Origin: Theodoxus fluviatilis | Taxonomy: Eukaryota; Mollusca; Gastropoda; Cycloneritida; Neritidae | DNA length: 64,000 nt | Direction: 5' to 3' | Assembly (NCBI GenBank): GCA_034096865.1 | Contig: JAWQFJ010000606.1 | Location: 1 to 64,000, forward strand | In this document: piece by piece, positions 13,688 through 54,490 of the stretch | How the letters are laid out: every line of letters starts with the position of its first letter | Numbering within the stretch: the stretch's first letter is position 1 | Translations under genes and position numbers: made by a program | Notes under the pieces: generated by a model | Told to the model about the DNA's origin: nothing | What the model saw: the letters and a program-made list of their open reading frames with translations, nothing else | Database searches by the model: none

Positions 13688-13800
13688 ACTGCAAGAAGGT
13701 ACGGAGTCAGCTGGGAAACACCTTGTCCTACTGTCTGCCCGGCATCCTTCAGTGTCTCACCCGCATCCTCTCCTCCAACACCAAGCAACCCGTCCTCCGC
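13688..13800 (+). CDS. TTI1: TTI1 exon a
   Basis: Acceptor TTTTGTGCAG and donor GTAGGT. Two leading bases, then 37 codons including [16 protein letters not shown], matching the LPGI helix of TTI1 (human about residue 230). The donor is followed at once by a (TG)n tract. Confidence 0.85.
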
Positions 13801-23000: not shown

Positions 23001-26000
23001 TCATCATTATACAGCTGTTGGTTTCCCTCAAATGCCATATTGCAATATTTGACCTGCAGTCGCTTGCAGTCAATAGAAGCAGTGTTCGAAGCTGCACCGA
23101 TCCTAGAGTTGCATCCTTGGGCAAGGTGCTTTATCCACAATGCTTCTCCCATCAAGGAGTGACAGGGGATGAAATTCCCCCAAGATAATTTCCTCAAGAA
23201 GGACAAAAATAAAGATCATCATCTTTGATCATCATTAATCATTATGCCTAAACTTGTGCAACTGTCAAATGGCCACAATAGCATTGTACTAGATAAGCAC
23301 CAGTGCAACTGTCAGCTTCATTTTGGATGTGCTCATGGGAAGAAAGGAAGGACCTGTTTCTTTTTGACTTCAGTGACATCCACTTGATATGCAGTAGCTT
23401 GAAGCTGAATAAGTGAAGATGATGCCTCTGTGTCTCTGTGTGATAGAGGGCTCCAAACACAGCACTTTGCCATGAATATGCTGTAAATAATCCATTTGGT
23501 GGATTGCAGTGACTTTGGGGGAAAAGCATGTTTTGTGTTTGTCTCCACATTTGTATTCAGGAGGCTGGCAAAGAGGAACAATCATTGTAGAGGAAAAAAT
23601 GGGAAATGGATATTTGGGAAGCAGACAATGTGAAGAACAAATAAGTTTTTTTACATAGTGGGAAGTTTCTTGCTTAGGACTTCACATGCAATTATACAGA
23701 AAGGATGTCTGTGAGTGTCTATTCCTTGGCAGCACTCTACGTAGTAAGTAAGACGTATGTGTGACATTCTTTCTCAGAAAAAAATATGTGTATTAATTCC
23801 ATGACTCCTTTCTACCAAGCAAAAAAAATTAGCATTTGCTATTCTTTCTCAGAAAATAATATATATGTGTGTATTTATTCCATTGCTACTATCTACCTGT
23901 AGATAAAATGAGTGTGATATTTTTTATCAGAAAAGATTTCTCTGTGTATCTATTCTATGGCTTTATTCTGCCTCACAAAGTGTGTGTGCGATGTTCCTTC
24001 CCCTGCATAACGAAGTGTATGTGTGATGTACCTTCCGCAGAGAAGGGAGAGGTGGACCTGACACAGCAAGTCCACGTCAACAGACCAAGGCGGACTTTCC
24101 GCTACTTCACCGACCAGAAAGTCCTGGACGCTCTTGTCAAGGTCCTCCACCTCCTTGGCTTCTACGGTGAGCTGCTCATGGACTCGTGTAGCGGGGGTGA
24201 TCTACAGTAGTGTAGCGGAGGTGATCTTCAGTAGTGTAACGAAGGTGATCTACAGTAGTGTAGCGGAGATGCTCTACAGTAGTGTAGCGGAGGTGATCTA
24301 CAGTAGTGTAGCGGAGATGATCTACAGTAGTGTAGCGGAGATTCTCTACAGTAGTGTAGCAGAGATGCTCTACAGTAGTGTAGCGGAGATGCTCTACAGT
24401 AGTGTAGCGGAGATGCTCTACAGTAGTGTAGCAGAGATGCTCTACAGTAGTGTAGCGGAGATGCTCTACAGTAGTGTAGCGGAGATTCTCTACAGTAGTG
24501 TAGCGGAGATGCTCTACAGTAGTGTAGCGGAGATGCTCTACAGTAGTGTAGCGGAGATGATCTACAGTAGTGTAGCGGAGATTCTCTACAGTAGTGTAGC
24601 GGAGATGCTCTACAGTAGTGTAGCGGAGATGCTCTACAGTAGTGTAACGGAGATGCTCTACAGTAGTGTAGCAGAGATGCCCTACAGTAGTGTAGCGGAG
24701 ATGCTCTACAGTAGTGTAGCGGAGATTCTCTACAGTAGTGTAGCGGAGATGCTCTACAGTAGTGTAGCGGAGATGCTCTACAGTAGTGTAGCGGAGATGA
24801 TCTACAGTAGTGTAGCGGAGATTCTCTACAGTAGTGTAGCGGAGATGCTCTACAGTAGTGTAGCGGAGATGCTCTACAGTAGTGTAACGGAGATGCTCTA
24901 CAGTAGTGTAGCGGAGATGCTCTACAGTAGTGTAGCAGAGATGCTCTACAGTAGTGTAGCGGAGATGCTCTACAGTAGTGTAACAGAGATGCTCTACAGT
25001 AGTGTAGCGGAGATGCTCTACAGTAGTGTAGCGGAGATGCTCTACAGTAGTGTAGCGGAGATGCTCTACAGTAGTGTAGCGGAGATGCTCTACAGTAGTG
25101 TAGCGGAGATGCTCTACAGTAGTGTAGCAGAGATGCTCTACAGTAGTGTAGCGGAGATGCTCTACAGTAGTGTAGCGGAGATGCTCTACAGTAGTGTAGC
25201 AGAGATGCTCTACAGTAGTGTAGCGGAGATGCTCTACAGTAGTGTAGCGGAGATTCTCTACAGTAGTGTAGCGGAGATGCTCTACAGTAGTGTAGCGGAG
25301 ATGCTCTACAGTAGTGTAGCGGAGATGATCTACAGTAGTGTAGCGGAGATTCTCTACAGTAGTGTAGCGGAGATGCTCTACAGTAGTGTAGCGGAGATGC
25401 TCTACAGTAGTGTAGCGGAGATGCTCTACAGTAGTGTAGCGGAGATGCTCTACAGTAGTGTAGCGGAGATGCTCTACAGTAGTGTAACAGAGATGCTCTA
25501 CAGTAGTGTAGCGGAGATGCTCTACAGTAGTGTAGTGGAGATACTCTAAAATAGTGTAACGGAGATGCTCTACAGTAGTGTAACGGAGATGCTCTACAGT
25601 AGTGTAGCGGAGATGCTCTACAGTAGTGTAACGGAAATGATCTTCAGTAGTGTAGCGGAGTTGCTCTACAGTAGTGTAGCGGAGATGATCTACAGTAGTG
25701 TAACGGATATGCTCTACAGTAGTGTAGCGGAGATGCTCTACAGTAGTGTAGCGGAGATGCTCTACAGTAGTGTAACGGAGATGCTCTACAGTAGTGTAGC
25801 GGAGATGCTCTACAGTAGTGTAGCGGAGATGCTCTACAGTAGTGTAACGGAGATGCTCTACAGTAGTGTAGCGGAGATGCTCTACAATAGTGTAACGGAG
25901 ATGCTCTACAGTAGTGTAGCGGAGATGCTCTACAGTAGTGTAGCGGAGATGCTCTACAGTAGTGTAACGGAAATGCTCTACAGTAGTGTAACGGAAATGA

Positions 26001-29000
26001 TCTTCAGTAGAAAAACAAAGTTTAGAAAAATAGGTGATTAATATCAATGAATGAATGAAGTTTTACAACCTATCAGAAATTTTAGGCTGTGCAAGGCCTG
26101 TTTAGACTCTAAGAGCAAGTCAAAATGTTGATTTCCTTAGTCTTGTGCTTTTTAGGGAGATGGGTGGATCTGTTCTTTCCTCCACTGTCAAGGGTATGAA
26201 CATCAAAGAATGTATTGTCAGGGATGAAAATTTTCCGCGGATCCGAGGATTTCCTCGGATTTGATGACCAATTTGGTCACTCTCGAGATTCGTGTAAATC
26301 CGTTGAGAATTTTTTTTTTTTTTTTGGGGGGTGGGGTTAGGTTGAACCGCACCGGCTGATGGGTAGCCATTTTGCTGCCTCGGCCAATCGTGCAAATCTG
26401 CTTAAAAGCACACGAAGAAGAAATCGGAAACTAGTCTGAACCAATGAAACGCTTCAAAAGAGAAGCCTCTGTCTATCCTTTGCTCTGATTGGTCGCTTAA
26501 CCCGTGCGCATCGCGTGATCATGGCCGAATTGATGAACGGAAACAGCCGAAGCTAGCTTCGGCTCTTTTCGACATAAGGAACGCACGGCGTCTTTAGTAT
26601 CAATCAACCAAGTGCAAGAATGCCGAGGAGGGATGCAAAGAAGTTTGCTACGCTGCATAAATTTGGGGAAAACCCGAAGAAAAAAAGGAAGACAACGGTA
26701 GACTTGTCAACAGCCTCCGGAGCGGAGAATTCGACAGTGATCGCTTCTGTTTCGATCGACACCGCACCACGTGCGAGCGGCGATTCAGCAGCTACCACTC
26801 TTGAGTCGATCGAAACTACGCTTGCTTCTAGTTCTACTTCGACCGAAGATGCACCTCTCGCTAGTAGTGATTCGGCAACCTCCGCACTCACGTTTATCGA
26901 ATCTGCTTCTGGCGCAGCTGATGTTGCGAAAGCAATCGCCTCCTCATCGTCAGAATCTGTCCCTACCAGGGCCAAGAAACTTCGTTTCGAGAGCGAGACA
27001 AGAGAGCCAGTAGGTGATGACGAGAACGTGATTGTCAGCATGAGCATAATGAACAAGCTCGTCTCCGTGTTCCGCTGCCGAGATTGTGACCAGCCGTTAA
27101 CAGTGACCAAAAATCAGTCGGCGATGTTTGGATCAGCGAGCAAGCTGAAAGTGTTCTGCTCAGCATGTGGGAACACCATTACGGCGGTCAGGACCTCACC
27201 AAAGACAGGTACTCTGCACAATGGCTATGACATCAACCGTCATCTCGTCGTTGCTGCCACCTATATTGGGATTGGGTTCACTCAACTGAGACGATTTTTC
27301 GCTCTCATGAACATGCCCCCACCCCATGCATCTGAAGACATGGCAGCTCTACCAGAAGACGCTGCATTGGAGTTCATCGGGCTGCTGATAGGCACCTTCA
27401 GGAGGCAGCTGAACAGGTTCGACTGATGTACTTGCAGTTGAAAATTAGTCAGCCAACTCCAGAAGGACGTCTAGATATTGCAGTTTCGTTCGATGGGAGC
27501 TGGCACAAGCGTGGGCGAACATCTCACAGTGGCATTGCTGCTGTCATTGAGATCTACAGTGGACTTGTTGTAGACTTTGTGAGATGTCAAGTTTCAGGAG
27601 TGATATGAATAAATGATGCGGAGGTAACACAACTTCACATTTTTGGCATGATGTTGACAAGTGTTTGTACTGTACTAGTTGTTGAAAAAACTTCCTGGTG
27701 CACTTTTCACAAGAGAATTTTTTTGTAACCAATATTCAGACAGCTAATTTTGTCATGTAGGAAGTAATGTCTGAAAGTTTAGAATATAAATTATAGCTTT
27801 CAGCACCTTTCTGCTTTCATAAGCAGATTTTGACATTTGCTCTTGTTGTCTGAATTTGTACTTGAATTGCTAGGAAATGCCTTCTCAGCACTTATAAATA
27901 GCATTTAAAAATTTCGGCGGGGGGCGTTGCCCCACTGGACCCCCCAGCGGGGCGTTGCCCCTGCACCCCACCGGGGCCTAGGCGGCCCCTGGACCCCGGC
28001 CAAGTTTCCTCTTTTTTTTCCATTCCCTGTTTTCATCCCTGATTGTGTACCAGGTTCAGAAAAGAAAAAGAAACAAAAAGAATGAATGATTAAAACAGTG
28101 AATCAGAAGATGCTGAATTACCAAAGTTTTAATGACCCTAATATTGAATTCATAGGTGAAGGAAAGTGTACATTCATGTAGTTCCAAGTAGTCCTGCAGT
28201 CACAGATCCTCTGATTCGGATGTGGACCTTGTACATTGTGTGACTGCTGTGGAACTGAGACTTTGGTCAGCGAGAGTGGACAAATCCTACTGCCATCTTG
28301 CAGGAGATCTTGTAGTACATTGTGTGACTGCTGTGGAACTGAGACTTCGGTCAGTGAGAGTGGACAAATCCTACTGCCATCTTGCAGGAGATCTTGTAGT
28401 ACATTGTGTGACTGCTGTGGAACTGAGACTTTGGTCAGTGAGAGTGGACAAATCCTACTGCCATCTTGCAGGAGATCTTGTAGTACATTGTGTGACTGCT
28501 GTGGAACTGAGACTTCGGTCAGTGAGAGTTGACAAATCCTACCGCCATCTTGCAGGTGACCTTGAGCTGCTGGTGGAGCACTTCTTGGACCTGTTCCGAG
28601 TGTCCGCGTTCCGCCACAGTTCTGCCATCCTGGTGGTCAACCACCTGGTGCAGGGCGCCTCTGTCTACACGCCTCCAGGTGAGTAGCACAGCCTGTAGTC
28701 TCTGACCTGGCTGTTTGTCAGTGTTGCCTGCAACCGCGCATGCCTGTAATTTATGGCCACCACATGTTCAATATCCATTCACACTTGATTGCTGCTGGAT
28801 TTGTTTTTCAAGCGGGAAAAATAAGTTCACAATATGTGCTGCTGTGAAATTACGTGGAATTAGTTTAGAGGCTGATTTGTTAAAATAATTGTTTTTGAAT
28901 ACAAAGAAATAATTGAATGATTGGATTTAATTTTTAATGCTAAGAGTGCGTGAAACCAAGTTTCATACTTTTTTGTGTTTTGTTTTTAGAGACTGCGAAG

Positions 29001-32000
29001 GAGGGGGGATTTGGCCATACAGACTGTTGCAACAGTTCTGAAACAGTTTTGAGTGTTATCAGGTAAAGTGTGTGTTACATGTGGCTGTATCCAGTGTTAC
29101 GTTGTTTGTGGAAGATGTTGAATTGATTTAAGGCTGAGGCCATGCTATCTATTCAGCTGTACCACATCTTGTGATTTGGACTCAGGCTTGTTGAGTAGAA
29201 GCTCCAGATGGCTATAGTGGTTACCATATTGCATAATCTGACTTGTCAGCAAATGTTGATTGTTAAAAAACAATCTCATGTCGTGACTCTCGAATTCATC
29301 AGCCAGTGTACAGATATCTGTGATAGAAAACAAAATCATGTCATGTTCTAGACTCTAGAATTCAGCAGCCGGTGCACAGATATCTGTGATACTCATAGAA
29401 ACCCTTCAAGAGATTACATTCCAACACAGCTGTTCACAGAATACAACCTGCAGAAGTTAGAAAAGTGCAAGAACCAAAGGTGGGAACTGAACCTGTGCCC
29501 TTCCAGTGCACATTCCAATGCTCTGACATAGCTGTGTGCTGGAGTTGTAAGTGTCAATAGCTGTGTGCTGGAGTTGTGTCAATAGCTGTTTGCTGGAGTT
29601 GTAAGTGTCAATAGCTGTTTGCTGGAGTTGTAAGTGTCTATAGCTGTGTGCTGGAGTTTTAAGTGTCAATAGCTGTTTGCTGGAGTTGTAAGTGTCAATA
29701 GCTGTTTGCTGGAGTTGTAAGTGTCTATAGCTGTGTGCTGGAGTTGTAAGTGTCTATAGCTGTTTGCTGGAGTTGTAAGTGTCTATAGCTGTGTGCTGGA
29801 GTTGTAAGTGTCTATAGCTGTTTGCTGGAGTTGTAAGTGTCTATAGCTGTGTGCTGGAGTTGTAAGTGTCTATAGCTGTTTGCTGGAGTTGTAAGTGTCT
29901 ATAGCTGTGTGCTGGAGTTGTAAGTGTCTATAGCTGTTTGCTGGAGTTGTAAGTGTCTATAGCTGTGTGCTGGAGTTGTAAGTGTCTATAGCTGTTTGCT
30001 GGAGTTGTAAGTGTCTATAGCTGTGTGCTGGAGTTGTAAGTGTCTATAGCTGTTTGCTGGAGTTGTAAGTGTCTATAGCTGTGTGCTGGAGTTGTAAGTG
30101 TCTATAGCTGTTTGCTGGAGTTGTAAGTGTCTGATGACGTGGAGCCTGCAGGGCATGGGAGAAATGAAGTGGCCTTGACCCCTGATGTGTATGTCACGCA
30201 GCAGTGCACATTCCAATGCTCTGACATAGCTGTGTGCTGGAGTTGTAAGTGTCTGATGACCTGGAACCCGGCATGTGAGAAATGAAGTGGCCTTGACCCC
30301 TGCTGTCTGTGCCGTGCAGCATGCTGGTGGAGACGTACGTGGGATGGCTGGAGACAGATCCCATCCAGCAGGCTGCAGTCCAGGAGTCCTGGCATGACAC
30401 TGCAGGCACAGGGCTGACAAACGGCTCTGTCCACTCGGATCCTGATGAGAGGTGGCGCGTGGTGCCAATGTCCCAGTCCCTTGTCCCAGCGTCCCTGTCC
30501 CGTCCCAGTCTCGCTGTGTCCCACTCCAGTCTGTCCCTGCAGACTCTGCTCATGGAAGGCCTTGGAAACTTTGCCACAGTAAGTATTTATTTATTTATCT
30601 ATTTATTAATTTATTTATTTATCTATCTATCCATCCATCCATCCATCCATTATTGATTGATTTCAAGAATAATTAATTATATGCATACATTTTCATTATA
30701 AGACTGCTCTTGTTTTACTTTCTTTTTGACTCACATGCAAAGCAAAAGTGAGTCTATGTACTCACCCGTGTCGTCCGTCCGGGCGTCCGAAAACTTAAAC
30801 GTTGGATTTTTCTCAGAGACTATTAAGTCTATCAATACCAAATGTGGCATAATGGTGTATGATGACAAGGCCTCAAAAAACATACATAGTGACTTGACAT
30901 TGCTTCAAGGTCAAGGTCGCAGGGGCCATAAATGTTGTCTAAAAAACAGCCATTTTTCACATTTTCTCAATTTTCTCTGAAGTTTTTGAGATTGGATACC
31001 TGACCTATATATGGTATATAGGGCAAAGTAATCCCTATCTTTTGATACCAGTTTGGGTGACCTTGCTTCAAGGTCAAGGTCACAGGAGCTCTTCAAAGTT
31101 GGATTGTATACATATTTTGAAGCGATCTTGTCCCTGAACTATGGAAGATAACTGTTCCAAACTTCATAACATTGTAGTACACATGTTATACTTTCATCAT
31201 GAGACACATTTGGCCACATATCATCAAGGTCAAGGTCACTTTGACCCTTATGAAATGTGACCCAAATGGGGTAGTGAACCACTAAAAGTGACTATATCAT
31301 GATAGAAAGTGCCAATAAGCACCATTTAGCTTCCTATGTCTTGAATTAACAGCTTTGTGTTGCATGATCTTGGATGACCTTGACCTTGGGTCAAGGTCAC
31401 ATGTATTTTGGTAGGAAAAATGTGTAAAGCATTTCTTAGTTTAGTGTATGATGTCATGCTAGGTGTAGTTAATTGGCCTTGACCTTGAAGGTCACCTGAA
31501 GGTCAAGGTCATGTAAAGGTCAAGGTCAAGCATGTGAGTTGTATGGGCTTTGCCCTTCTTTTTTCTTCTTGAAATCAATGCTGCATTATGCAAATTTAAA
31601 TTTTGTTGCCTTGGAGTAAAAGACTACTAGAAAACAGCTAACAAAATGTATTTTATGAAGAAATTGTGTCAGAGATGTCATTACCACAAATAGTCAATGT
31701 TAGGTGCTATGTGCTTAAAATTGACATGGTTGTGAAAAAGAAAAAGACTCGACTAAGAAGAGGAAATGGGCAGGACTGACTCAGTGAGGGGAGGGAAGAA
31801 CAGAACTGTCTCCAACTGCAGACAAGAAGCGCAGTTTGAATTGGGTTCTGTGCAGTGTGCTTGGTGCATGTAGGAAGTGTGCTGGGATGTTTATGTGCTG
31901 TACAAATAATTATGCATTAATCCCCAAAATGTTTTCTTTAGTATTGGGTGGAAAGAAATGTCACATACATTTTTGTCATGACAAGGAATTAATGCTGGAT

Positions 32001-35000
32001 TTTGTCGGGGACAAGAATATTAACTTCCTGAATCACAAACTTTTTTCAGTCGAATGGGAACATGTCAAAGCCCTAATATTTTTAAAAGAGGCAATTCACT
32101 GTGATCGTATATTCCTTGGTGCACAATCATCTCTATAGTACATATCACTCTTTTAGGTCCAAAAGATGAGATTTTGAGGTTTGGGCTAGAGGCATGAGAA
32201 TAACCTTGAAAGAGATTTCAGGAAGGGGATGTGCATGCATCCCAATACCACCTTTGGTCAGCCTGCGGAGAGACATAACACTTAACCTTTAGAGCGCCAC
32301 TAATTTTCGTCATAGGTTTACCCCAGAACCACAAGTTTTTATGTGTGGTCAAATTCGACACCATATTTTCTTAAAAAATCATCATTTATTACCTATTCAA
32401 GCTTTGAAGTAGATTTTTGAAGGGTGAGTAGAAAAATGGATGGCCTACATGGCGCAATTAATGAAAATACCATAGAATGTTTTTTTCAGCTGCTAAAAAA
32501 TATTGGAACACAGACAACAACAAAAAACAAACAAATACACTGTGTTTTCCTACACTGCTCTATGTATTCAAGAATGCAACAGCTTTTGATGAAAATGCAA
32601 AAGTGCATACATAGAGTCTCCAAGTAATGGAGATACATCTGAAAATGTTTTAGGGTAAAACTAAAACAAAACAAAAAATCCTACAATTACTTCCAGTAGA
32701 GAAGTCAACCGAGTCATTTTCATCTGAATCAAGCTTCCGCTCCTCTCAGTCTCGATCTACAGACCACAACTGACATCGGTTGAAGCACTGTTTTCCTACA
32801 CTGCTCTATTTATTCAAGAATACAACAGCTTTTGATTACTTGGAAATACATCTGAGAATGTTTTAGGGTAAAGCAAAACCAAAAATCCTACAATTACTTA
32901 CGCTAGGGAAGTCAGCCGAGTCATTTTCATCTGAATCAAGCTTTCGCTTGTCTCGATCTACAGACCACCACACATCGTCGAAGTACATGCTTGCCTCTCT
33001 ATCCCTCCATCTCCCATCACATCAATGTCAGTAAAGCCTTCGGATTCATATTCTGAGAGTCAGAATCGAAAAATAACTCCACAAGCGCTTCAACTTCTTC
33101 GTCAGTCGCCATACTGGCAAAGAAAAAAGTCCTGTTCACAAACGACAAAGACGCAACTTCGTGAAAAAATTAGCAGAAAATTCGCCCACGCTATCTCAAT
33201 CGCCAAAATGGCGGATCTCGTTGCCACGTGATCCCTGCATGTGACTATGATATTTTTAGAACAGCATGACTCGATGGCAGCGTTAGGCAAGTAAACAAAG
33301 CACGTCACTATTGCTTGTCGCACTGATACGCCGGCGGACGTCTGGGGAATGTACGCTGTGGCGCGTCAAGGCGCTGGCGGCGCTCTAAAGGTTAATATTG
33401 ATGGTTTTATTCGTAGGTAAAAGATAGACTGCCGAATTCGAGAAGACAAAACAAATAATGATCATAAAGATAGCTGGGAGGTGTTTTTATTATAGAAACA
33501 AACGTTTTGGTCGTAGCCCTTCATCAGTTTGGCAAACAGCAAGTTTGAAGATGATGGTTTCTTGTTTCCCCCAGGTGGCAGGGCCGATGTTTGAGAGTCA
33601 CCTGATGGCGGTGCTGTACCCGGTGCTGGTGAGACTGGGGGAGGAGGCCCAGCTCCTGTCACACACGGCGTACCTGGCCCTGCATGACATGGCACACGCC
33701 TGCTTCAAGCCGTGAGTAGGCTGCCAGTGGGACTGGCCACACGGGCGGACCAACTTGTTTCTCTCTGTTCCTCAGACTGAGGCCAAGGCTTACATAGAGA
33801 TTGCTGACATGGATTTAATTGCTTGTTGGAGTGATTATCTCTCTGACCCTGTTGTAGTTTGAGGCAAAAGACATACACAGAGATTTTTGCATGGGTTTGG
33901 TTGCATGTAGGAATAATCTTCTGTATGTTGCTGAGATGTTTTCTCTTGCACATGAAATGTGAAACACTCTCATGAGACACCTCAGAAACGACACATCGTG
34001 GGAGTTAGTCAGCCAAGTTTGTGTCCTGCAGAGTTCCCCACTGTGGAAAGCCCCTGGGGTGAGCATGACAGTTTGGAGTGAAAGTGATCTTTTCCTCCCA
34101 GTGAAAGTGGTTCAGTGTTTTGAGTTATTTCACCATGACACTTGCAACCTACCATGCCAGTCGCATGCATCAAGTCTTTAGTAGTAAGGAATGTCTGACT
34201 CGGTGGCGGATGCTATCTCTCTTTTTCTTTCTGTTGTTCTCTTTGCTTTGTTTTTCTTCTTTCTTTTTTAACTTCTTTCTTTCTTTCTTTTTCTTTCTGT
34301 CTGTATTTCTTTCTCACTTTCTTTCCTTCTTTCTTTTTGTCTTTCCCACTTTCATTCTTTCTTTTTTCCTATTTTCCTTTCTTTGTGTCTTGCTGACTGA
34401 TGTTTTATCTGCTTGTCTTCCTTCTTTCCTTCCTTCCTTTCTTATTTCCCTCCCTCCTTTGTCCAGTCACTAGACCCAGTCATGCAGTCTGTGTGCAGGT
34501 CAGTGGGAGTGCTGCTGAAGGACAATGTGGACTTCCTGGTGGACGCGGTCAGTGCCCGCCTGCGCCACCTGTCGTCCCACCTGGAGGCCCCTGCTGTCCT
34601 CCATCTTGCCCTGGCCTACTGCGGGCAGAGTGCTCTCCCCTGTCTGCAGCCCCTGCTTCTGGAGGTGGGTGTCCTGTCCTCTACCCAGAGCTGGAATGGA
34701 GCTAGAAGTGCATGGGGCATCTGTCAGGGCCCACATGAAAAGCTGTAGTAAGGGATGAGCTTAGAGTATTTTTGTGTGATTCCACATGACTGTAGCCCCT
34801 GTACATCTTATGTCTCCTTAGGGTTTCTGCGCATCTCGTAGCAACAGAAGTGGTTATTGGAATGTGTATTTGAAGGTGAAGACAAAGTTGACCATGGCGC
34901 CTTCATCCTCTTACAGGTGTTCAATCAGTTGACAGCGAGCTGAGATTGCCTTTTGACTGTTCATTGCTGCAGCCTTGCATACCATGTGTGGCCAAAAATT

Positions 35001-35750: not shown

Positions 35751-36809
35751 ATGCATGTTTGCATGCTTATGTACATGCATGAAGGGTAACATGAAAGTTG
35801 GATAGTGATACACACTTCCTTCATAAACACTGCTTTTTCTGACTCTGCTACATTTTTTTTGCTGATTTTTTTCTTCCTTTCCTTTTGCTGCCTGTCATTT
35901 TCCTTGCTTGTTCCACTTTCTTCCAAGTATCTTTCCATTCTACCCCTGCTGCCATTCCTTCATGCTTGCTTGGTTTCACAGGCACCAGCAGAGGAGCAGC
36001 CCAAGGCTGAGACAGATGCCAAGATGGATGCCAAGATGGATGCCAAGACTGATACCAAGACTGATAATGTGGTGGATGCCAAGACTGATGCCAAGATGGA
36101 TGCCAAGACTGATGCCAAGATGGATGCCAAGACTGATACCAAGATGGATGCCAAGACTGATGCCAAGATGGATGCCAAGACTGATGCCAAGATGGATGCC
36201 AAGATGGATGCCAAGATGGATGCCAAGACTGATACCAAGACTGATAATGTGGTGGAATATCTAAGAGACCTGCAGAAGACCATGAAGATCTCAGACAGTC
36301 TGGGAGAGGATCTGGAGCTGTCTGACAGTGACGATGACAAAGGAAATGAAAGTGGAGATGAAAGTAAGAGCAAAGAGGAACAGAGTGAGACTGAAAAGTT
36401 TTTCAACAAGTATGACAAGGTGCTGTCGGAGGCACAGAAGGAGGCAGAGCAGGCAGGTGTGGAAGAGGAGGAAGGACAGAAGAAAGAAGCGACAGATGAC
36501 CCCTACAGGACCATTGTACTGGAACAGACCAAGGAGGTGAGTGACATTCCCATTGTGAGTGTAAAATGAAATCTTTTGTTTGTATGGAATCTTTTATCTG
36601 AATAGAAGGCATAACCTGGTAGCATCCTGTATCTTGTACCCCCTGTGGGTTGGGGGTCAGAATAGACCCACCGTGTCTCTCTACGTGATTGGTAAGAAGC
36701 AAATAATTAGGGACATAATGACTTGATTTGTGCTTTCTCTAAACTATTCTTGTGATTTTAATGTTTAATGACCCTACATAGCCTACAAAGGCTGATAGGC
36801 CATAAAACT

Positions 36810-36851
<42 letters not shown>

Positions 36852-39800
36852 TGTGTCTAGTTTTTGCACCTCTCCTCCTTATTTGTGGCAGACACCTTTT
36901 TACTCCTGTCCACTGTGTCATGCAGTCACCTTTACATTGCTGTGTGCGTTGCCTTCACAGACACCTTTTTACTCCTGTCCACTGTGTCATGCAGTCACCT
37001 TTACATTGCTGTGTGCGTTGCCTTCACAGACACCTTTTTACTCCTGTCCACTGTGTCATGCAATCACCTTTACATTGCTGTGTGCGTTGCCTTCACAGAC
37101 ACCTTTTTACTCCTGTCCACTGTGTCATGCAGTCACCTTTACATTGCTGTGTGCGTTGCCTTCACAAACACCTTTTTACTCCTGTCCACTGTGTCATGCA
37201 ATCACCTTTACATTGCTGTGTGCGTTGCCTTCACAGACACCTTTTTACTCCTGTCCACTGTGTCATGCAATCACCTTTACATTGCTGTGTGCGTTGCCTT
37301 CACAGACACCTTTTTACTCCTGTCCACTGTGTCATGCAGTCACCTTTACATTGCTGTGTGCGTTGCCTTCACAGACACCTTTTTACTCCTGTCCACTGTG
37401 TCATGCAGTCACCTTTACATTGCTGTGTGCGTTGCCTTCACAGACACCTTTTTACTCCTGTCCACTGTGTCATGCAGTCACCTTTACATTGCTGTGTGCG
37501 TTGCCTTCACAGACACCTTTTTACTCCTGTCCACTGTGTCATGCAATCACCTTTACATTGCTGTGTGCGTTGCCTTCACAGACACCTTTTTACTCCTGTC
37601 CACTGTGTCATGCAATCACCTTTACATTGCTGTGTGCGTTGCCTTCACAGACACCTTTTTACTCCTGTCCACTGTGTCATGCAATCACCTTTACATTGCT
37701 GTGTGCGTTGCCTTCACAAACACCTTTTTACTCCTGTCCACTGTGTCATGCAGTCACCTTTACATTGCTGTGTGCGTTGCCTTCACAAACACCTTTTTAC
37801 TCCTGTCCACTGTGTCATGCAATCACCTTTACATTGCTGTGTGCGTTGCCTTCACAGACACCTTTTTACTCCTGTCCACTGTGTCATGCAATCACCTTTA
37901 CATTGCTGTGTGCGTTGCCTTCACAGACACCTTTTTACTCCTGTCCACTGTGTCATGCAATCACCTTTACATTGCTGTGTGCGTTGCCTTCACAGACACC
38001 TTTTTACTCCTGTCCACTGTGTCATGCAGTCACCTTTACATTGCTGTGTGCGTTGCCTTCACAGACACCTTTTTACTCCTGTCCACTGTGTCATGCAGTC
38101 ACCTTTACATTGCTGTGTGCGTTGCCTTCACAGACACCTTTTTACTCCTGTCCACTGTGTCATGCAGTCACCTTTACATTGCTGTGTGCGTTGCCTTCAC
38201 AAACACCTTTTTACTCCTGTCCACTGTGTCATGCAGTCACCTTTACATTGCTGTGTGCGTTGCCTTCACAGACACCTTTTTACTCCTGTCCACTGTGTCA
38301 TGCAGTCACCTTTACATTGCTGTGTGCGTTGCCTTCACAAACACCTTTTTACTCCTGTCCACTGTGTCATGCAATCACCTTTACATTGCTGTGTGCGTTG
38401 CCTTCACAAACACCTTTTTACTCCTGTCCACTGTGTCATGCAGTCACCTTTACATTGCTGTGTGCGTTGCCTTCACAGACACCTTTTTACTCCTGTCCAC
38501 TGTGTCATGCAGTCACCTTTACATTGCTGTGTGCGTTGCCTTCACAAACACCTTTTTACTCCTGTCCACTGTGTCATGCAATCACCTTTACATTGCTGTG
38601 TGCGTTGCCTTCACAAACACCTTTTTACTCCTGTCCACTGTGTCATGCAATCACCTTTACATTGCTGTGTGCGTTGCCTTCACAAACACCTTTTTACTCC
38701 TGTCCACTGTGTCATGCAGTCACCTTTACATTGCTGTGTGCGTTGCCTTCACAGACACCTTTTTACTCCTGTCCACTGTGTCATGCAGTCACCTTTACAT
38801 TGCTGTGTGCGTTGCCTTCACAGACACCTTTTTACTCCTGTCCACTGTGTCATGCAGTCACCTTTACATTGCTGTGTGCGTTGCCTTCACAGACACCTTT
38901 TTACTCCTGTCCACTGTGTCATGCAGTCACCTTTACATTGCTGTGTGCGTTGCCTTCACAGACACCTTTTTACTCCTGTCCACTGTGTCATGCAGTCACC
39001 TTTACATTGCTGTGTGCGTTGCCTTCACAGACACCTTTTTACTCCTGTCCACTGTGTCATGCAATCACCTTTACATTGCTGTGTGCGTTGCCTTCACAGA
39101 CACCTTTTTACTCCTGTCCACTGTGTCATGCAATCACCTTTACATTGCTGTGTGCGTTTCCTTCACAGACACCTTTTTACTCCTGTCCACTGTGTCATGC
39201 AGTCACCTTTACATTGCTGTGTGCGTTGCCTTCACAAACACCTTTTTACTCCTGTCCACTGTGTCATGCAGTCACCTTTACATTGCTGTGTGCGTTGCCT
39301 TCACAGACACCTTTTTACTCCTGTCCACTGTGTCATGCAGTCACCTTTACATTGCTGTGTGCGTTGCCTTCACAAACACCTTTTTACTCCTGTCCACTGT
39401 GTCATGCAATCACCTTTACATTGCTGTGTGCGTTGCCTTCACAGACACCTTTTTACTCCTGTCCACTGTGTCATGCAGTCACCTTTACATTGCTGTGTGC
39501 GTTGCCTTCACAAACACCTTTTTACTCCTGTCCACTGTGTCATGCAGTCACCTTTACATTGCTGTGTGCGTTGCCTTCACAGACACCTTTTTACTCCTGT
39601 CCACTGTGTCATGCAGTCACCTTTACATTGCTGTGTGCGTTGCCTTCACAGACACCTTTTTACTCCTGTCCACTGTGTCATGCAGTCACCTTTACATTGC
39701 TGTGTGCGTTGCCTTCACAGACACCTTTTTACTCCTGTCCACTGTGTCATGCAATCACCTTTACATTGCTGTGTGCGTTGCCTTCACAAACACCTTTTTA

Positions 39801-42257
39801 CTCCTGTCCACTGTGTCATGCAATCACCTTTACATTGCTGTGTGCGTTGCCTTCACAAACACCTTTTTACTCCTGTCCACTGTGTCATGCAGTCACCTTT
39901 ACATTGCTGTGTGCGTTGCCTTCACAGACACCTTTTTACTCCTGTCCACTGTGTCATGCAATCACCTTTACATTGCTGTGTGCGTTGCCTTCACAAACAC
40001 CTTTTTACTCCTGTCCACTGTGTCATGCAATCACCTTTACATTGCTGTGTGCGTTGCCTTCACAAACACCTTTTTACTCCTGTCCACTGTGTCATGCAGT
40101 CACCTTTACATTGCTGTGTGCGTTGCCTTCACAAACACCTTTTTACTCCTGTCCACTGTGTCATGCAGTCACCTTTACATTGCTGTGTGCGTTGCCTTCA
40201 CAGACACCTTTTTACTCCTGTCCACTGTGTCATGCAGTCACCTTTACATTGCTGTGTGCGTTGCCTTCACAGACACCTTTTTACTCCTGTCCACTGTGTC
40301 ATGCAGTCACCTTTACATTGCTGTGTGCGTTGCCTTCACAGACACCTTTTTACTCCTGTCCACTGTGTCATGCAGTCACCTTTACATTGCTGTGTGCGTT
40401 GCCTTCACAGACACCTTTTTACTCCTGTCCACTGTGTCATGCAATCACCTTTACATTGCTGTGTGCTTTGCCTTCACAGATCCTGTTGAGATGCAAACAC
40501 CTGCTGCTGACTAAGAGTCGAGAACTGACACTGGCGGTGCTGACCATCGTCCAAGATGGCTGTCTGCTGCTCCATGGCACGGAGGGTATGTTGTTTCTGC
40601 CTGTTATAATAATGTTAAGTAATCTTGTCACAGAATGATGCATTACAGATGTGAGAGCAGATATAGTAAAAATGTGTTTTATAATTCAGGAGAGTTGACT
40701 GCAGGATAATGACTGATGCCCTAGCAGACCACGAAGGATCAATCAGCATCTGTGGCAGAAAGATCACCAACTTACGTTTTGCTGATGACATTGATGGATT
40801 TGCAGGAAGTGAAGAGGAGCTGACTAGTCTTGTTGAGCACCTGGACAAGACCTCACAGGCATATGGCATGGAGATCAGCGCCGAGAAGACCAAGGTGATG
40901 ACGAACAATCCTCGGGGCTTCAAAATGGAAATCAAAGTGAAGGGCCAAAAACTGGAAGCTGTGAACTTCAAATACCTGGGATCTATTGTGACTGATGAAG
41001 GGTCCAAACCAGAGATACTGTCCAGGATAGCACAAACAACAGCAGCATTGGCAAAGTTGAAGCCAATATGGTGTGACAGAAATATCACTCTCGCGTCGAA
41101 AACCCTGTAAAAACTGATGGTCGTGTATTGTTTCTCAATACAGGCATGATATGGCAAAACTGTCCTTGAAAACCCTGTACAAACTGATGGTGGTGTATTG
41201 TTTCTCAATACAGGGATGATGTAGCAAAATTGTCCTTGAAAACCCTGTACAAACTGATGGTGGTGTGTTGTTTCTCAATACAGGGACAGTGTGGCAGACG
41301 TGTCACCAGCTGTGGCAGCCCATCGTAGCTCTCTTCAAACGTGATGTCCCCATCGTCCAACATCAGGTAGGCAGGGCTGAGATGTAAAGATGAATTATTT
41401 CTGACAGGCCTACGGCTCTAGCACTGTATTGAGTTGGTTCTTTTTAACCCTTAGCGTGCGGCCGGCGGGAATTCCCGCCGAGCTTGGTTTCACCGCTGTG
41501 TGCGGACGGCGGGAGATCCCGCCCGCACTCGATCGCTGAGGGTGGGTTAGTTTGAACGCGGTTATCTCCCTTGCAAATGACATCAACTATCTATAAATAC
41601 CACAGCAGGAAAGCGGACATCCCGAGCTTTCTGCGCATGTGCAGTTTGTATGGGCGATCTCTACAAAGTTTTCGAGTAAATTCGCTCCGAAGTTTGATGT
41701 TTTTTTTGCGTCAAGTTTTGTCAGAAGACATCGATGAGCGTGTAATAGAGCTTTTGTTTGGCGAGGATTCAGACGAAGAGTTCGAGCCTTTCAATCTAGA
41801 TGATGTTGCCGAGGCAGAAGCAGAATTGCAGCGATTCCGATCGCGGGAAGATGTCGAAGTTCGAACCGTTACCGTGCATCGGAGCGAGCATCGTCAAGTA
41901 GATCAACTTCAAGACGTGCATCAGGAAGCGCATCACGCTCTTTCCGACAGCAGGCTTCCGAAGATGCTTAGCTTCCTCCCTTCTGTCAGACGTCTGGCCT
42001 ACTTGTTCACACTGAGAGCGACGATGCCAACAAGATTTTCGCTTACTTCTTCGATGACGATGTATTTGGACTAATGTAATGACCGAACAAACAATCAGGT
42101 ATGCGTCGCAATATTTCGCAGCCCATCCAGTCGACCAACTCGCGCCTCACTCACGGTTTCGAGATTGGAGATTTTAAACCTGCTGTAGAGATTTTTGCTT
42201 GATTTCCTAGATAGTTTTCAACCTGCTATGGACACTGCATGTTGCCTTGGGTAGAAG

Positions 42258-42295
<38 letters not shown>

Positions 42296-45200
42296 GTGTG
42301 TGTGATTTTCCAGTTTCAGCCATTTTTATTAGTATGTCATTGTACCTGTAGTAACATGTAGATATTCCATTGGTGTCATTTTGTGGATGAGTAAATAGTT
42401 ATGCTTATAATTCCTCATGAGAATCGTTTGCTTTCAACAAGGTTAGAGTGATTGTTTTTAGGCACTGTGATCAGCGTCTTCCCCACTCCCAACCACACCC
42501 CTACTCCATGATCACAGCAAGTACGTGGTGACTTTTGAGGTGCATGTAAGGATTTGAGGCCTTTTTTGTCCTTCTTTTTACTAGGTAACCTATCAGAAAT
42601 CAAGCCTGATAATTGCTGGAGGTTATGATTAGATAATAAAGTTAGTGTAAAGGCATTTTATTGGTCTGTTTTGTTGTTGTTGTTGTTTTATTTTATTTTG
42701 AGAATAAAACGCAGGTATTATGATAAATTTCATTCAAGTGCTGCATACCACTGTGTACAGAATTCTCTCAGCTACAACTTTTATTCTTTGCACTTTTTGA
42801 TCAGAGGGGAAGAAGAATATGAAAATGGGCTTCAAAGACGGTGACCGTTTTTGGAGTAAATTTAGGGAAAATAGGTCAGCAAGCAGCAATGACGATATGC
42901 AAAGAAACCTCAGCAGCGTAAGGGTTAAGGGGGTGGAGGGATGGCATATTATTTGCTGTGACAGATGGTGGCATCAGTTCAGCCCATAGTCCTTCTGGAA
43001 TGATGGCATGTCCATTGATATCGTGACACAAAGCTGTGAGCTCAGCAGAGGTTTTCAGGGAAGCCTGGAGGATTGCAGTCCATGGGAAGCCCTGTGATTT
43101 GCATTAAGGGGGGACACGGCGTACAAAAACGGATTAATAGAAAATAAATCATAACTCAGCAAATATGAAAGCTATACTAATGAAATTTTATACAGAATAC
43201 AAACACACTGGAAGGTATATTTAAACAAAATTTTATTGCTGAAGACTTAGTTGTTCTTGTGTTATAGCAAAATAACTGAAAAATAAACATACCAATTTTC
43301 TCCCCTCCGTGAAATTTTAATTAATAACCTTTTTATGATCAACAATGATTGTAAACAAAGAAGAAGGTCTATATTATTCAATAAGATATAATAAGTGGAT
43401 TACTAACACTTCTAAATAATTTTAGTGAAATTTAGAACAAGTAACCAAAAAATGTGCTCCGGGCATAACATAATTAAATTTTTACAAAAATTAAGCAAAT
43501 TCAGCTACACCTTTCTGATTGGTCTTATTGAATGCAATATTTATTCATAAATATACACACACAATTTCAGAAAGCTATCTCAATCCTAAGTGACTTTATT
43601 TTTGGGGAGAAAATCACTACCGTAGAAATAAAAACCACATTATGAGAAAATTGACTTTAAAGTTTGAGAAAGATTAAACGTTAACTACAACTGAACCATA
43701 ACAGATACAATTTAATAACATAACTCATTGAATGTGTCGTTTATTTGTTATCATTGTAGCAAACTTTCAACTTATTATCTTAATTCAAAATATCAGGATA
43801 ATTAGGTGAAAAGCATCACCTGTAGCAAAACATTCCCGTTTTCTGTAAGAATCGCGTAATCACGGCAACTTCCGCCGTGATAACAGCTTCGTTCAGTGCC
43901 GTGTCTGTAGATGAGAACGCGATCGCTGTTGTATCACAACCTCCAGAGGCTGTTGACACGACTTAATTTCTTTTCTGGGCTTGCTTTTTCCGTCCATTTC
44001 TGCATCTTCCGTGGAATTGTCTCGATCGAGATAGCGCGAACTTTCGCGCGCTGTAAGCGCACTTCGGAAAGAACCGATGTTTGCTTCGGCGGCCGACGTT
44101 CAGGCCGGAAACAGCCGAAGTACGGTTCGGCCGTTTCCGCCTACCACTTCCGCCAGTCGAAGTAAGGTTCGGCCGTTTCCGCCAGCCACTTCCGCCTGAT
44201 CACGCTGTGATCACGCACACAAGCGGCCAATCAGAGCCTAGCTGAGAGACAGGCCGTTATTTCGAAGCTTTCCATTGGTTTGCACTGGCATCCGATTTGT
44301 ACTTCGTGTGCCTTCGGTAATTATTCTTCGGTACCGGAAACAGTTGCAACGTAAAGCCGGGAAATGAAGCTTCGATGCGATACCAAACATGTGGCGTTCT
44401 TTGGAAGGAAGATGCTGAAACTAAGCTTTCAAATCTGTGCATTTTGGCTTCCTGGTTAGTACTTTTTTTTAATCTAGCGGTGGGTACCTTACAAAACAAA
44501 TTGGTTTAAAATACTTTGAAACCTAAGCCAGCAAAATCGATCGCACACACGTGTAGCGGAGATGTTGTAGATTCCAAATCCGCGCTTAACACGAAACTCA
44601 ATTTCTGAAAATTTTTCATGAAATTCTGCAGGCCGTGTCCCCCCTTAAGCATTTATAGAGGCATTGTGTCATAACTATGAAGAGAGAACACTGTTCAGTG
44701 GCAGATGAAGTGCTGGGGGGGGGGCTTGGAATCCCTGGAACAACCCCACCTCACCCCTGATCTGTCCCTGGAGTTTATAATTATCCAGCTTTAATCAGTT
44801 TTTGTAATTACCTGCTCCATGAACAGTTTTTTGTCAGTGTTTAAAAACATACTCATTGCATCAAAATTAATGGCGGGTTACCTACCACTTGGATACTGCC
44901 TCAGACACCGGAGAGAAGATAAATTGACACCTTTATTAGATTATTGAAATGTTTCCTCTGTAAAATGGGTTGTTACTGTCTTTCAGGTGTTCCAGGTGAT
45001 CAAAGTGATGTCAGAGTCATGTGGGGACTTCCTCAGAAGTCGAATTGTGGAGGAAATTCTCCCCTCCCTCCTGCAGACTCTGAACAGAGCAGCTGCAAAC
45101 AAGTAAGTATGCTGGCAGCAAGTTGTTTTGTAGTAAGTACTCTCGCAGTAAGTAGGCTGGCAGCAAGTATATTTGTAGTAAGTACTCTCACAGTACGTAC

Positions 45201-48200
45201 GCTGGCAGTGAGTGGTTTTGTAGTAAGTACTCTCGCAGTAAGTATGCTGGCAGTGAGTGGTTTTGTAGTAAGTACTCTCGCAGTAAGTATGCTGGCAGTG
45301 AGTGGTTTTGTAGTAAGTACTCTCGCAGTAAGTATGCTGGCAGTGAGTGGTTTTGTAGTAAGTACTCTTGCAGTAAGTATGCAGGCAGTGAGTGGTTTTG
45401 TAGTAAGTACTCTTGCAGTAAGTATGCTGGCAGTGAGTGGTTTTGTAGTAAGGACTCTTGCAGTAAGTTTGCAGATAGTAAGTGGTTTTGTAGTAAGTAC
45501 TCTTGCAGTAAGTACGCAGGCAGTGAGTGGTTTTGTAGTAAGCACTCTTGCAGTAAGTACGCTGGTAGTAAGTGGTTTTGTAGTAAGTACTCTTGCAGTA
45601 AGTACGCAGGCAGTGAGTGGTTTTGTAGTAAGGACTCTTGCAGTAAGTTTGCAGGTAGTAAGTAGTTTTGTAGTAAGTACTCTTGCAGTAAGTACGCTGG
45701 CAGTGAGTGGTTTTGTAGTAAAAACTCTTGCAGTAAGTACACTGGCAGTAAGTGTAGTAAGCACTCTTGCAGTGAGTATGCTGACAGTGAGCCAGTGGCT
45801 TGCTGCTTTTTACTGAGGAAGGCCTGTGCCTTAAAAGTTGTGTCCTTCATTAAACTTTCCTAAGCCTCCAAGTCCAAGCAATCCTTGCAGTCATTTTTGT
45901 TCTGTCACGCTGCTTTTTAACTACTTGAACATATACCACATGGAGTACTCATTTGGGTTTGGTTCCCTTAAAAGATTACAGAGCCTTATTGAATCATGCC
46001 AATTAGGATCAAGTTTAAAAAACAAAGCAGAACATTCTGCAGGGAAACTTAGGAAGAGTTTTTTTGAAACTGCCATTATAGATTGAACTCACGATCTCCC
46101 TGTGAATGTCTAAGCTTTCTAACCACTGACTGAGCTACTAAAGTTTGGGAGAAATTCTCTCAAAATTGCAAATCACTTTTGACATTGTTGTGTGAAAAAT
46201 CGTTTGCAAGTCTCTCCTAGCACCCATGCTGGGTGTTCTGCTCTCTATAGGGATCTTGCAATCCTTGGTTGCTACCTGAGGAAATGGTGAGTAGTGATGA
46301 TAGGTGTTGGTTTTCTCTATGAGGGTTAGATATGTGCAGTTATGTTCTTCGTAGTGGCAACCAGGTTGATGTTGCAAATGGGATGGGTTTGATCTTCGAG
46401 GACGGTGAGAACACATGGTTGGATCTGAGTGATCTGACCCTGTCCTGATGCCCCTCATAGCCGCTTGGGGCTGTTCCTGGCTGAACTACTGGAGCAGGCC
46501 CGAAAAGCCTGCAGCTGGGGGCTCCAGCTATGATGGGGGTGGGTTTTGTGCACATCGAAAGACTCCAGTTCAATGTTACTCTTGGTTCCTGTAAGATTTG
46601 ATGACCTTTTTAGCCTTGGAAGTTGGGCAAATTAAATTTCAGTGCATCTGTTATGTGATTTAGAACTTTGACAGCTAGAGAAGTCACATGATCATGAAGA
46701 GCTATAAACTGATCTGCACTCTAGGGACTGTCTCGCTGCAAGAGGGATGTTCCATCTGTGTCTGCACTCTAGGGACTGTCTCACTGCAAGAGGGATGTTC
46801 CATCTGTGTCTGCACTCTAGGGACTGTCTCACTGCAAGAGGGATGTTCCATCTGTGTCTGCACTCTAGGGACTGTCTCACTGCAAGAGGGATGTTCCATC
46901 TGTGTCTGCACTCTAGGGACTGTCTCACTGCAAGAGGGATGTTGCCCATCTGTGTCTGCACTCTAGGGACTGTCTCACTGCAAGAGGGATGTTCCATCTG
47001 TGTCTGCACTCTAGGGACTGTCTCACTGCAAGAGGGATGTTCCATCTGTGTCTGCACTCTAGGGACTGTCTCACTGCAAGAGGGGTGTTCCATCTGTGTC
47101 TGCACTCTAGGGACTGTCTCACTGCAAGAGGGGTGTTCCATCTGTGTCTGCACTCTAGGGACTGTCTCACTGCAAGAGGGATGTTCCATCTGTGTCTGCA
47201 CTCTAGGGACTGTCTCGCTGCAAGAATGATGTTCCATCTGTGTCACACTCTATTATGTGTGCTGTCCATTGCAGCATCTGTGTCACACTCCATTAGGCGT
47301 GCTGTCCATTGCAGCATCTGTGTCACACTCCATTAGGCGCGCTTTTTTCCATTGCAGCATCTGTGTCACACTCCATTAGACATGCTGTCCATTGCAACAT
47401 TGTGTCAAACTCTATGGAGCATGCTGTCCATTGCAGCATTGGTGTCACACTCTATGGAGCATGCTGCCCATTGCAGCATGGTGTCACACTCTATGGAGCA
47501 TGCTGCCCATTGCAGCATGGTGTCACACTCTATGGAGCATGCTGCCCATTGCAGCATGGTGTCACACTCTATGGAGCATGCTGCCCATTGCAGCATAGTG
47601 TCATACTCTATGGAGCATGCTGTCCATTGCAGCATTTGTGTCACGCTCCATTAGGCATGCTGTCCATTGCAGCATAGTGTCAAACTCTATGGAGCATGCT
47701 GTCCATTGCAGCATTAGTGTCACACTCTATGGAGCATGCTGTCCATTGCAGCATCTGTGTCACACTCCATTAGGCGCGCTTTTTTCCATTGCAGCATCTG
47801 TGTCACACTCCATTAGACATGCTGTCCATTGCAACATTGTGTCAAACTCTATGGAGCATGCTGTCCATTGCAGCATTGGTGTCACACTCTATGGAGCATG
47901 CTGCCCATTGCAGCATGGTGTCACACTCTATGGAGCATGCTGCCCATTGCAGCATGGTGTCACACTCTATGGAGCATGCTGCCCATTGCAGCATGGTGTC
48001 ACACTCTATGGAGCATGCTGCCCATTGCAGCATGGTGTCACACTCTATGGAGCATGCTGCCCATTGCAGCATGGTGTCACACTCTATGGAGCATGCTGTC
48101 CTTTGCAGTTGGGCCAAGGCGTCTCCCAGCTCCCTCAGCTTCCTGCAGCTGCTGCTGTCCAGTCTGGGATCCCTGTCTGCCACGGTCAGTGTGGAGTCTT

Positions 48201-49382
48201 GGAGGGCAAGAGTGGACCAATTGCCTTGGATGGATGGATGGATGGATGGATGGTGGAGAGGGAGGGATGGATGGTGGAGAGGGAGGGAGGGAGGGATGGA
48301 TGGTGGAGAGGGAGGGATGGTGGAGAGGGAGGGAGGGATGGATGGTGGAGAGAGAGGGAGGGATGGATGGTGGAGAGGGAGGGATGGATGGTGGAGAGGG
48401 AGGGAGGGATGGATGGATGGTGGAGAGGGAGGGATGGATGGTGGAGAGGGAGGGAGGGAGGGATGGATGGTGGAGAGGGAGGGAGGGAGGGAGGGATGGT
48501 AGAGAGGGAGGGATGGTGGAGAGGGAGGGAGGGATGGATGGTGGAGAGGGAGGGAGGGATGGATGGGTGGAGAGGGAGGGAGGGATGGATGGGTGGAGAG
48601 GGAGGGAGGGATGGATGGGTGGAGAGGGAGGGAGGGATGGATGGTGGAGAGGGAGGGGGATGGATGGTGGAGAGGGAGGGAGGGATGGATGGATGGTGGA
48701 GAGAGAGGGAGGGATGGATGGTGGAGAGGGATGGATGGTGCATAGCTGCCAACTGTTACGGAAAAACCGTAAAAAATCGTTTTTTTAATATCTGTCGTCG
48801 TTTTCGTTGTTTTCTAAAAAAAATACGGTTTCCGATTTCACAAAAAAAAAAACGAAATTTTAAACGAAGCAACTTTGGCTTTCAACATGTTGCGCTAGTC
48901 TATCGAGTGAAGTTTTTGTGCTCTCGTTTTCCGCGCCTAGCTGACCACCTTTGAACGCACTAGGCCTAGCCTACTGGCTGGAATCGGGAAGGGAGCTCTT
49001 CTGCGAATTTCGCGCATGCGCATAGCGGCTGCAGTCAACATGGCGTCGAGTTCGACTAGCGCAGAGAAAAATAATGCGAAGCCGAAACGATTACAACGAT
49101 ACATTGCGGCTTACAAGGAAAAGTTTCCATGGGCCGCTCCGTGTCCATCAAGAGGTGAAAAGTTTGCTTTCTGTACTGCATGCAGATGTGCGGTGAATAT
49201 TTCTCACGGAGGAAGAAACGATCTAGCCGACCATGAAAAGACCACCAAACACAAAAAAAATTGCGAAGCTGAACAATCAAAAGCTATATAAAATAATTAA
49301 TGCTTTGTAATATAATGGGCTTTCTTCTTTTTCTTCTTGTTCTTCTTCTTCGTCTTCTTCTTCTTTTTCTTCTTGTTATTAA

Positions 49383-53609: not shown

Positions 53610-54490
53610 TCACTTCACTTGTCCTGTAGTCTGGATGACCGTTGGGGCAACACAGATGATCTGGCAACCAGCTCTCTCCATTCCTCTCGCCTCTTGGACT
53701 GTCTCAAGGCTTCGCTGAGCCTCATCCCTGTCCACTCTGAGACGTTGTCCTCCCATCTTTTCCTTTGTCTGACTCTCCTCCTCCCTCCTTTTACTGTGCC
53801 TTGTAGCACAGTCTTGGCAAGCCCTGACGATCGTGAGACGTGCCCATACCACTTTAGTTTGCGTCTTTTCACAGTGGTCAGTAGTTCTTCATGGGGCCCG
53901 ATGGCTTGCCTGATTCTGTTTCGGACTTCCTCGTTTATGATGCGGTCTTTGTAGGAGATGCTGTGGAGTCGTCGAAAGCATCTCATTTCCATGGCCTGCA
54001 TCCTTCTCTCCAAGTCAGCTGTTAGTGTCCATGACTCACAGGCATACAAAAATATGGACATGACCAGGGCGCACATCAGTCTGATCTTTGAGCTGAGGAC
54101 TATGTTCCTGTCCTTCCAAATGGTCTTGAGTTTTGTGAGTGCCGCTGTGGTCTGAGCAATTCTGGCAAGTATTTCAGGTTTGAATCCTGCATCTGTGACA
54201 ATTGCTCCCAGGTATTTGAATGTTGATGATTTCCAGTTTCTCGCCACATACCTTGATGTCAGTGCTGATGCCGTTGGTGTTGTTGGTCATCAGTTTGGTC
54301 CTCTTTGCACTGAGCTGCATGCCAAAATTTGTGGAGGTTGTGTCTAAGCGCTCCACTAAGTTCTCCAGCTCCTTTTCACTTCCGGCCAGACCATCTATGT
54401 CGTCAGCAAAACGAAAGTTTGTGATTGTTCTGCCGCCAATGCTGACTGTCCCCTTGTGGTCTCTTAGGGCGTCATTCTTTATTCTTGATC
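53610..54490 (-). mobile_element. LINE fragment, RT 3' half and C-terminal region
   Basis: Minus strand: DALRDHKGT, FADDIDGLAGSEKEL, LSAKRTKLMTNN, then (after a frame change near 54,200) STFKYLGAIVTDAG, FLYACESWTLTADLERR, RKLKWYGHVSRSSGLAKTVL and RKRWEDNVSEWTG, stop at 53,615. Matches the 40,690-41,101 copy and extends further 3'. 5'-truncated at nearly the same codon as that copy; at least one frameshift. Confidence 0.88.

Follow-up and report, generated by a model that had tools for sequence, protein, structure and literature searches.

A 69-bp minisatellite ending at the acceptor of TTI1 exon E11, and the clustering of minisatellites at splice junctions of the same gene

Tandem repeats lying across exon-intron boundaries have been described in amphioxus as mirages, i.e. 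in Adh3, in the globin genes BflGb6 and BflGb9, in PGBD5 and in the troponin C gene (PMC3087553, PMC3902484). They occur at both 5' and 3' boundaries, with an AG or GT in many, not all, of the units and with an unstable length; Adh3 data and globin reverse transcription-polymerase chain reaction results suggest that regular splicing is undisturbed (PMC3087553). In this work, we focused on the TTI1 gene carried by positions 1 to 64,000 of contig JAWQFJ010000606.1 (this whole 64,000-nucleotide stretch is hereafter called the window), and especially on a 69-bp minisatellite that ends at the acceptor of its exon E11. We consider it probable that this array is a mirage-type minisatellite, unusually long and borne by a gene unusually rich in them, of which the exon-proximal copy works and the upstream copies are mostly silent. 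The main interest of the locus lies in the gene-wide link of minisatellites with splice junctions.

TTI1 exons were placed via reading frame, phase and splice consensus. Exon E11 (ILLRCKHLL...; 40,480-40,585, forward strand, as are all features below unless stated otherwise) starts in phase 0 and is followed by a GTATGT donor. It belongs to TTI1, as the translation of the joined exons matches the human TTI1 structure (PDB 7ole, E=2.6e-71); the same translation carries four Pfam TTI1 domains (PF24173, PF24176, PF21547 and PF24181). The preceding exon E10 (35,982-36,536, donor GTGAGT at 36,537) encodes an acidic linker, in which an in-frame 12-bp coding repeat of the DAKM/DAKT type (36,010-36,240) starts 28 bp past the acceptor.

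Tandem Repeats Finder (TRF) reported a period of 69 bp and 52.1 copies at 36,889-40,480, with 98% matches and 0% indels. In register, the array consists of 52 units of exactly 69 bp each (36,893-40,480), with CAGA directly before them, and a 28-base pattern (with one R) taken from the unit has 50 matches in the window for 0 expected (100 shuffles). The first-pass annotation of this DNA had reported a tandemly multiplied 3' splice site at the TTI1 acceptor, which the 52 units and the match of the exon to TTI1 bear out. It had also let the array stop on the last acceptor base: the array does end at the acceptor, the AG of which is at 40,478-40,479, and the repeat match extends to the first exon base, 40,480. 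Its description of 52 identical competing acceptors goes too far, since 17 of the 52 units have lost the terminal AG (TTCACAA in place of the TTCACAG found in 35, the last unit included), and since the real copy carries a private G-to-T change and obtains the top score of the 91 AGs scanned.

The consensus unit contains two branch-point-like TTTAC motifs, pyrimidine-rich stretches and two AGs, and a third match to YTNAY (TTCAC) is located at the AG itself. Only positions 33 and 68 are commonly variable; each is the G of an AG, and the consensus has no AG besides these two. At position 33, G is found in 32 units and A in 20. Post hoc arithmetic gives this coincidence a chance of 1 in 2,346 by position count, and of 1 in 66 on the assumption that changes are confined to Gs. 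The sequence is identical in 23 of the 52 units, and two units have one private change each. The last unit (40,412-40,480), i.e. the one that holds the real acceptor, has lost its internal AG (CAA) and differs from the other copies by the private G-to-T, which falls within the pyrimidine tract. Array length and variants are those of one haplotype. We do not claim that selection silenced the AGs: the units that lack the terminal AG are dispersed along the array (runs test P=0.22), variation at one AG site is independent of that at the other (Fisher P=0.54) and the AG is kept in the four units before the last one.

Alignment of the two halves of the unit beats shuffles (P=0.018, all rotations allowed), which is suggestive: the 69-mer may be an old dimer of an acceptor module of about 35 bp. 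No higher-order structure was seen in the array, in which the longest repeated string of unit types is 5 (shuffle mean 5.1), and no RNA hairpin was seen in the last two units with part of exon E11 (z=0.66).

Acceptors of intron 10 were scored with a matrix built on 13 array-free acceptors of TTI1. The real acceptor of exon E11 scores 11.1; the last unit owes its advantage over the others to the exon bases and to the private G-to-T within its pyrimidine tract. Among the other AGs of the intron, 33 units score 9.1 and one scores 9.8, while 32 sites score 6.1 and, to judge from this count, correspond to the internal AGs of the units. The left edge of the array also holds an acceptor-like site (CTCCTCCTTATTTGTGGCAG, 36,872-36,891), which reaches 9.7 and is possibly a remnant of the state that preceded the duplication. 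For comparison, in a background of 2,857 AGs from elsewhere in the gene region, which contains real acceptors, exons and other arrays, 1.05% reach 9.1. By these predicted scores, intact units resemble strong acceptors.

None of the three forward frames is interrupted within the array, as the first-pass annotation had stated; two of them stop at 40,486 and 40,511, so that the open reading frame of TTI1 (36,799-40,635) alone continues through exon E11. In this frame one unit corresponds to 23 residues, and the statement that an upstream acceptor, if used, would lengthen the protein in frame by n x 23 residues can be retained; in-frame 23-residue extensions of exon E11 would be possible. The array could accordingly be imagined as a length-variable splice module, in which many upstream acceptors are used and TTI1 isoforms carry n x 23 additional residues, inserted after the acidic linker and before the C-terminal helical domain. 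A unit length that is a multiple of 3, a frame open across all 52 units, 34 upstream units scoring 9.1-9.8 and the AG retained in the nearest four upstream units would suit such a module, which we nevertheless regard as unlikely: distant upstream sites would produce kilobase-long exons, the real acceptor is the strongest site, and amphioxus mirages appear to splice normally. Moreover, a 69-mer open in three frames has a chance of about 4% by stop-codon frequency (arithmetic), too weak an indication of selection. Even less credible, indeed hardly tenable, is a coding array, in which the left-edge acceptor, with its score of 9.7, would open an exon at 36,892-40,585 encoding about 52 repeats. The frame is open from 36,799 to 40,635, as such an exon would need, yet a repeat of this kind is absent from human TTI1 between the segments aligned to E10 and E11, the unit is rich in pyrimidines and contains branch-point-like motifs, and other TTI1 arrays are located at donors (E2 and E13), where an extended exon would run into a stop codon before the end of the first unit.

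Six other junctions of TTI1 bear minisatellites, which gives two donors (E2 and E13) and five acceptors (E5, E6, E11, E12 and E14). At the E2 donor (last exon base 20,509), an array of 45-bp and then 36-bp units covers 20,506-21,734; GTATGT is exact in 27 of the 30 aligned 36-bp units and in 3 of the 5 aligned 45-bp units. The array of the E13 donor (last exon base 45,102) begins at the junction and covers 45,102-45,791 with 45-bp units (15 aligned, 15.5 according to TRF), 13 of the 15 aligned units having an exact GTAAGT at the register of the junction. Four 84-bp units (28,231-28,564) lie over the E5 acceptor (first exon base 28,556), with the AG in 4/4 aligned units, and 2.7 units of 70 bp (41,098-41,286) over the E12 acceptor (41,284), with the AG in 3/3 copies. 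Arrays of 29 bp x 21 and 118 bp x 1.8 (29,528-30,321) end at the E6 acceptor (30,320), a less certain junction. Arrays of 48 and 39 bp (46,713-48,108) end at the E14 acceptor (48,109), of which the exon was placed by phase and by a weak resemblance. Out of about 22 units of 39 bp (TRF 21.9), the 8 closest to the exon were aligned, and 7 of these have the AG.

The units contain few exon bases at most of these junctions. At E12, however, the first 21 bases of the exon are matched at 13 positions by one upstream copy and at 14 by the other, versus 2-7 of 21 when 12 other exon starts are compared with the second upstream unit; at E5, 7 of 12 exon bases are matched, versus 1-6 for 12 other exon starts. 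The duplication thus probably crossed the exon boundary, at least at these two acceptors. An origin of the E12 unit from a long interspersed nuclear element (LINE) was rejected, the LINE match stopping at 41,085 and the array starting at 41,098.

Two further arrays lie close to donors that they do not contain, i.e. 24,186-26,010, which starts 20 bp past the E4 donor, and 48,227-48,738, which starts 43 bp past the E14 donor. Unit lengths in the TRF rows of the window include many multiples of 3 (24, 36, 45, 24, 84, 69, 48, 39 and 45), in deep introns too, as well as 29, 118, 70, 25 and 41.

We then considered all the minisatellites of the mapped TTI1 gene, this one gene being the scope of the test, with the expectation derived from random placement in introns. 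Seven of the 13 minisatellite clusters end at most 10 bp from one of the 34 mapped junctions, for 0.37 expected (P=1.3e-8). Not counted were microsatellites, the coding repeat of exon E10, one row lying in an exon (30,470-30,508), any row beyond the limits of the mapped gene and, within these limits, four rows that are short or represent pyrimidine tracts (15,214; 16,601; 31,488; 34,216-34,460). Adding the four short arrays gives 7/17 (P=9.8e-8), and six microsatellite rows in addition 8/23 (P=3.7e-8); with fewer clusters and junctions, the result is 7/12 (P=4.0e-9 with 28 junctions, P=4.8e-9 with 30). When the E6 and E14 acceptors are left out, 5/13 clusters remain (P=1.2e-5). An ordinary intronic minisatellite that abuts the exon by chance, or an expansion produced by the assembly, would have an origin independent of splice sites. 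The window is indeed rich in tandem repeats (65 TRF rows), and several arrays are far from mapped junctions (16,765-20,016; 44,112-44,196; 49,588-50,392). We nonetheless hold this explanation to be very improbable, because the clustering persists without the E11 array and the two uncertain junctions (4/11, P=5e-5; 4/16, P=3e-4 with the four short arrays added), and scattered variants among the units would argue against simple copying errors.

The mirage-type reading is thus supported by the coincidence of the array end with the start of exon E11, by the position of 7 of the 13 clusters at junctions, and by the same anatomy at both intron ends in the published amphioxus mirages. According to this reading, the last 69 bp or so of intron 10, comprising a branch-point-like TTTAC, the pyrimidine tract and the AG, would have been tandemly duplicated, and the duplicate would then have grown to 52 copies via unequal exchange or slippage. 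The exon-proximal copy is most likely the one that is spliced, and the upstream copies would be tolerated as decoys within the intron. The same probably applies to the other acceptor arrays, where the exon-proximal copy would yield the normal mRNA and the remaining copies would stay intronic. Exon definition, an established principle, would pair the exon-proximal copy of E11 with the nearby downstream donor, and this copy is moreover the strongest; both would favour its use. Occasional use of the nearest upstream copies would give exons of 175, 244 or 313 nt, with in-frame inserts of 23 residues.

Comparison of the copies within each array is in part consistent with this reading. The real copy is top-scoring in the E11, E5 and E14 arrays. 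Its pyrimidine count equals or exceeds those of the compared copies in 5/5 acceptor arrays; at E14, two of seven comparison points were out of register or had no AG.

Several points weigh against it. Exon boundaries come from homology, phase and consensus. Exons Em1 (13,688-13,800) and E0 (14,515-14,605) were located with the presumed human N-terminus as query, and two junctions are less certain: the E6 acceptor is out of frame with E5, and the E14 acceptor depends on the weak resemblance given above. Six of the 13 clusters are more than 10 bp from any junction, three of these lying at least 282 bp away, and the junction test was devised once the pattern had been seen. The splice scores were trained on 10 to 13 acceptors of TTI1. 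At E12, both other copies equal or exceed the real acceptor in score; counting the real site, 40 AGs score at or above it at E6, as do 4 GTs at the E2 donor and 26 GTs at the E13 donor. Strength alone therefore does not pick the real copy in these four arrays, and where a copy lies with respect to the exon must count as well. A scan that starts at the branch point and stops at the first AG (PMC1431707) fits the last unit of the E11 array, the internal AG of which is CAA; each of the four units before it retains its terminal AG, and indeed both AGs.

As regards the rest of the gene model, a short exon, E2b (22,398-22,454), was prompted by a gap in the human alignment, and with it both frame and resemblance were restored. 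The frame is not preserved from exon E5 to exon E6, so that an exon is probably missing between them. A further exon is suspected between E14 and E15, judging from the human protein.

Outside TTI1 exons, the window carries two related LINE reverse-transcriptase fragments (40,685-41,107 and 53,618-54,488, minus strand), with 72% DNA identity over the aligned part; in the first fragment, the LINE match stops a little short of the array at the E12 acceptor. The type of LINE and the likeness to human TTI1 suggest that the DNA comes from an animal. An open frame at 58,133-58,795 (minus strand), with a YLDDVIVYA motif, presumably resembles a retrotransposon reverse transcriptase. An Rfam search of the window gave no match at gathering scores, and no tRNA was found in it; a protein search, made with one query, yielded no relative.

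Minisatellite birth appears linked to exon edges in this gene. A broader proposal, which we put forward tentatively, is that splice junctions are birthplaces of minisatellites in this lineage: all along genes, donors and acceptors might give rise to arrays, the exon-proximal copy would be kept good by purifying selection, and the others would drift to silent decoys or, rarely, to in-frame length variants. Were an excess at junctions present genome-wide, the origin of boundary minisatellites and their role in intron sliding, exon extension and splicing alleles would become directly testable. The seven array-bearing junctions of this single gene already constitute a natural experiment on the choice that the spliceosome makes between large numbers of nearly identical sites.

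Among the matches listed in our literature search, we recognised no boundary minisatellite of the same kind outside amphioxus and human. In the human IFI6 (6-16) gene, a minisatellite contains multiple splice donors (Turri et al. 1995, cited in PMC4526556) and two downstream repeat units are used as donors (PMC4526556); its units carry usable splice sites, but these are donors and not acceptors, and alternative units are used. Variable boundary repeats of human segmental-duplication genes can alter splicing (PMC2812944); they differ by their units, on average 30 bp long and repeated 4 times, and by their tie to novel introns. CeRep25B, a 24-base intronic minisatellite of Caenorhabditis elegans that lies near regions of alternative splicing and is linked to splicing decisions (PMC4039745), is a dispersed palindromic repeat and does not consist of copies of the splice site itself. 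Tandem duplication is also reported to yield splice signals during intron gain (PMC4974935). An intron gained in this way would have both ends derived from the same duplicated unit; intron 10 of TTI1 does not correspond to this case, its donor (36,537) being outside the array and 352 bp before it (compared by eye).

Amphioxus mirages are thus the closest described counterpart. The first-pass annotation had called the arrangement unusual; it is not unique, since seven TTI1 junctions bear such arrays and the kind is published from amphioxus. As in mirages, the unit holds a boundary of a real gene, the exon side being reduced to one base at E11; many units, not all, carry the AG (35/52 at E11); and both types of boundary are affected, i.e. 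two donors and five acceptors. TTI1 differs by the 52 units at E11, compared with 6 and 3 in BflGb6, by the involvement of seven junctions in one gene, and by the few exon bases per unit at most of them. If the mirage-type reading is true and the host is not a lancelet, the process that generates such arrays would reach beyond cephalochordates.

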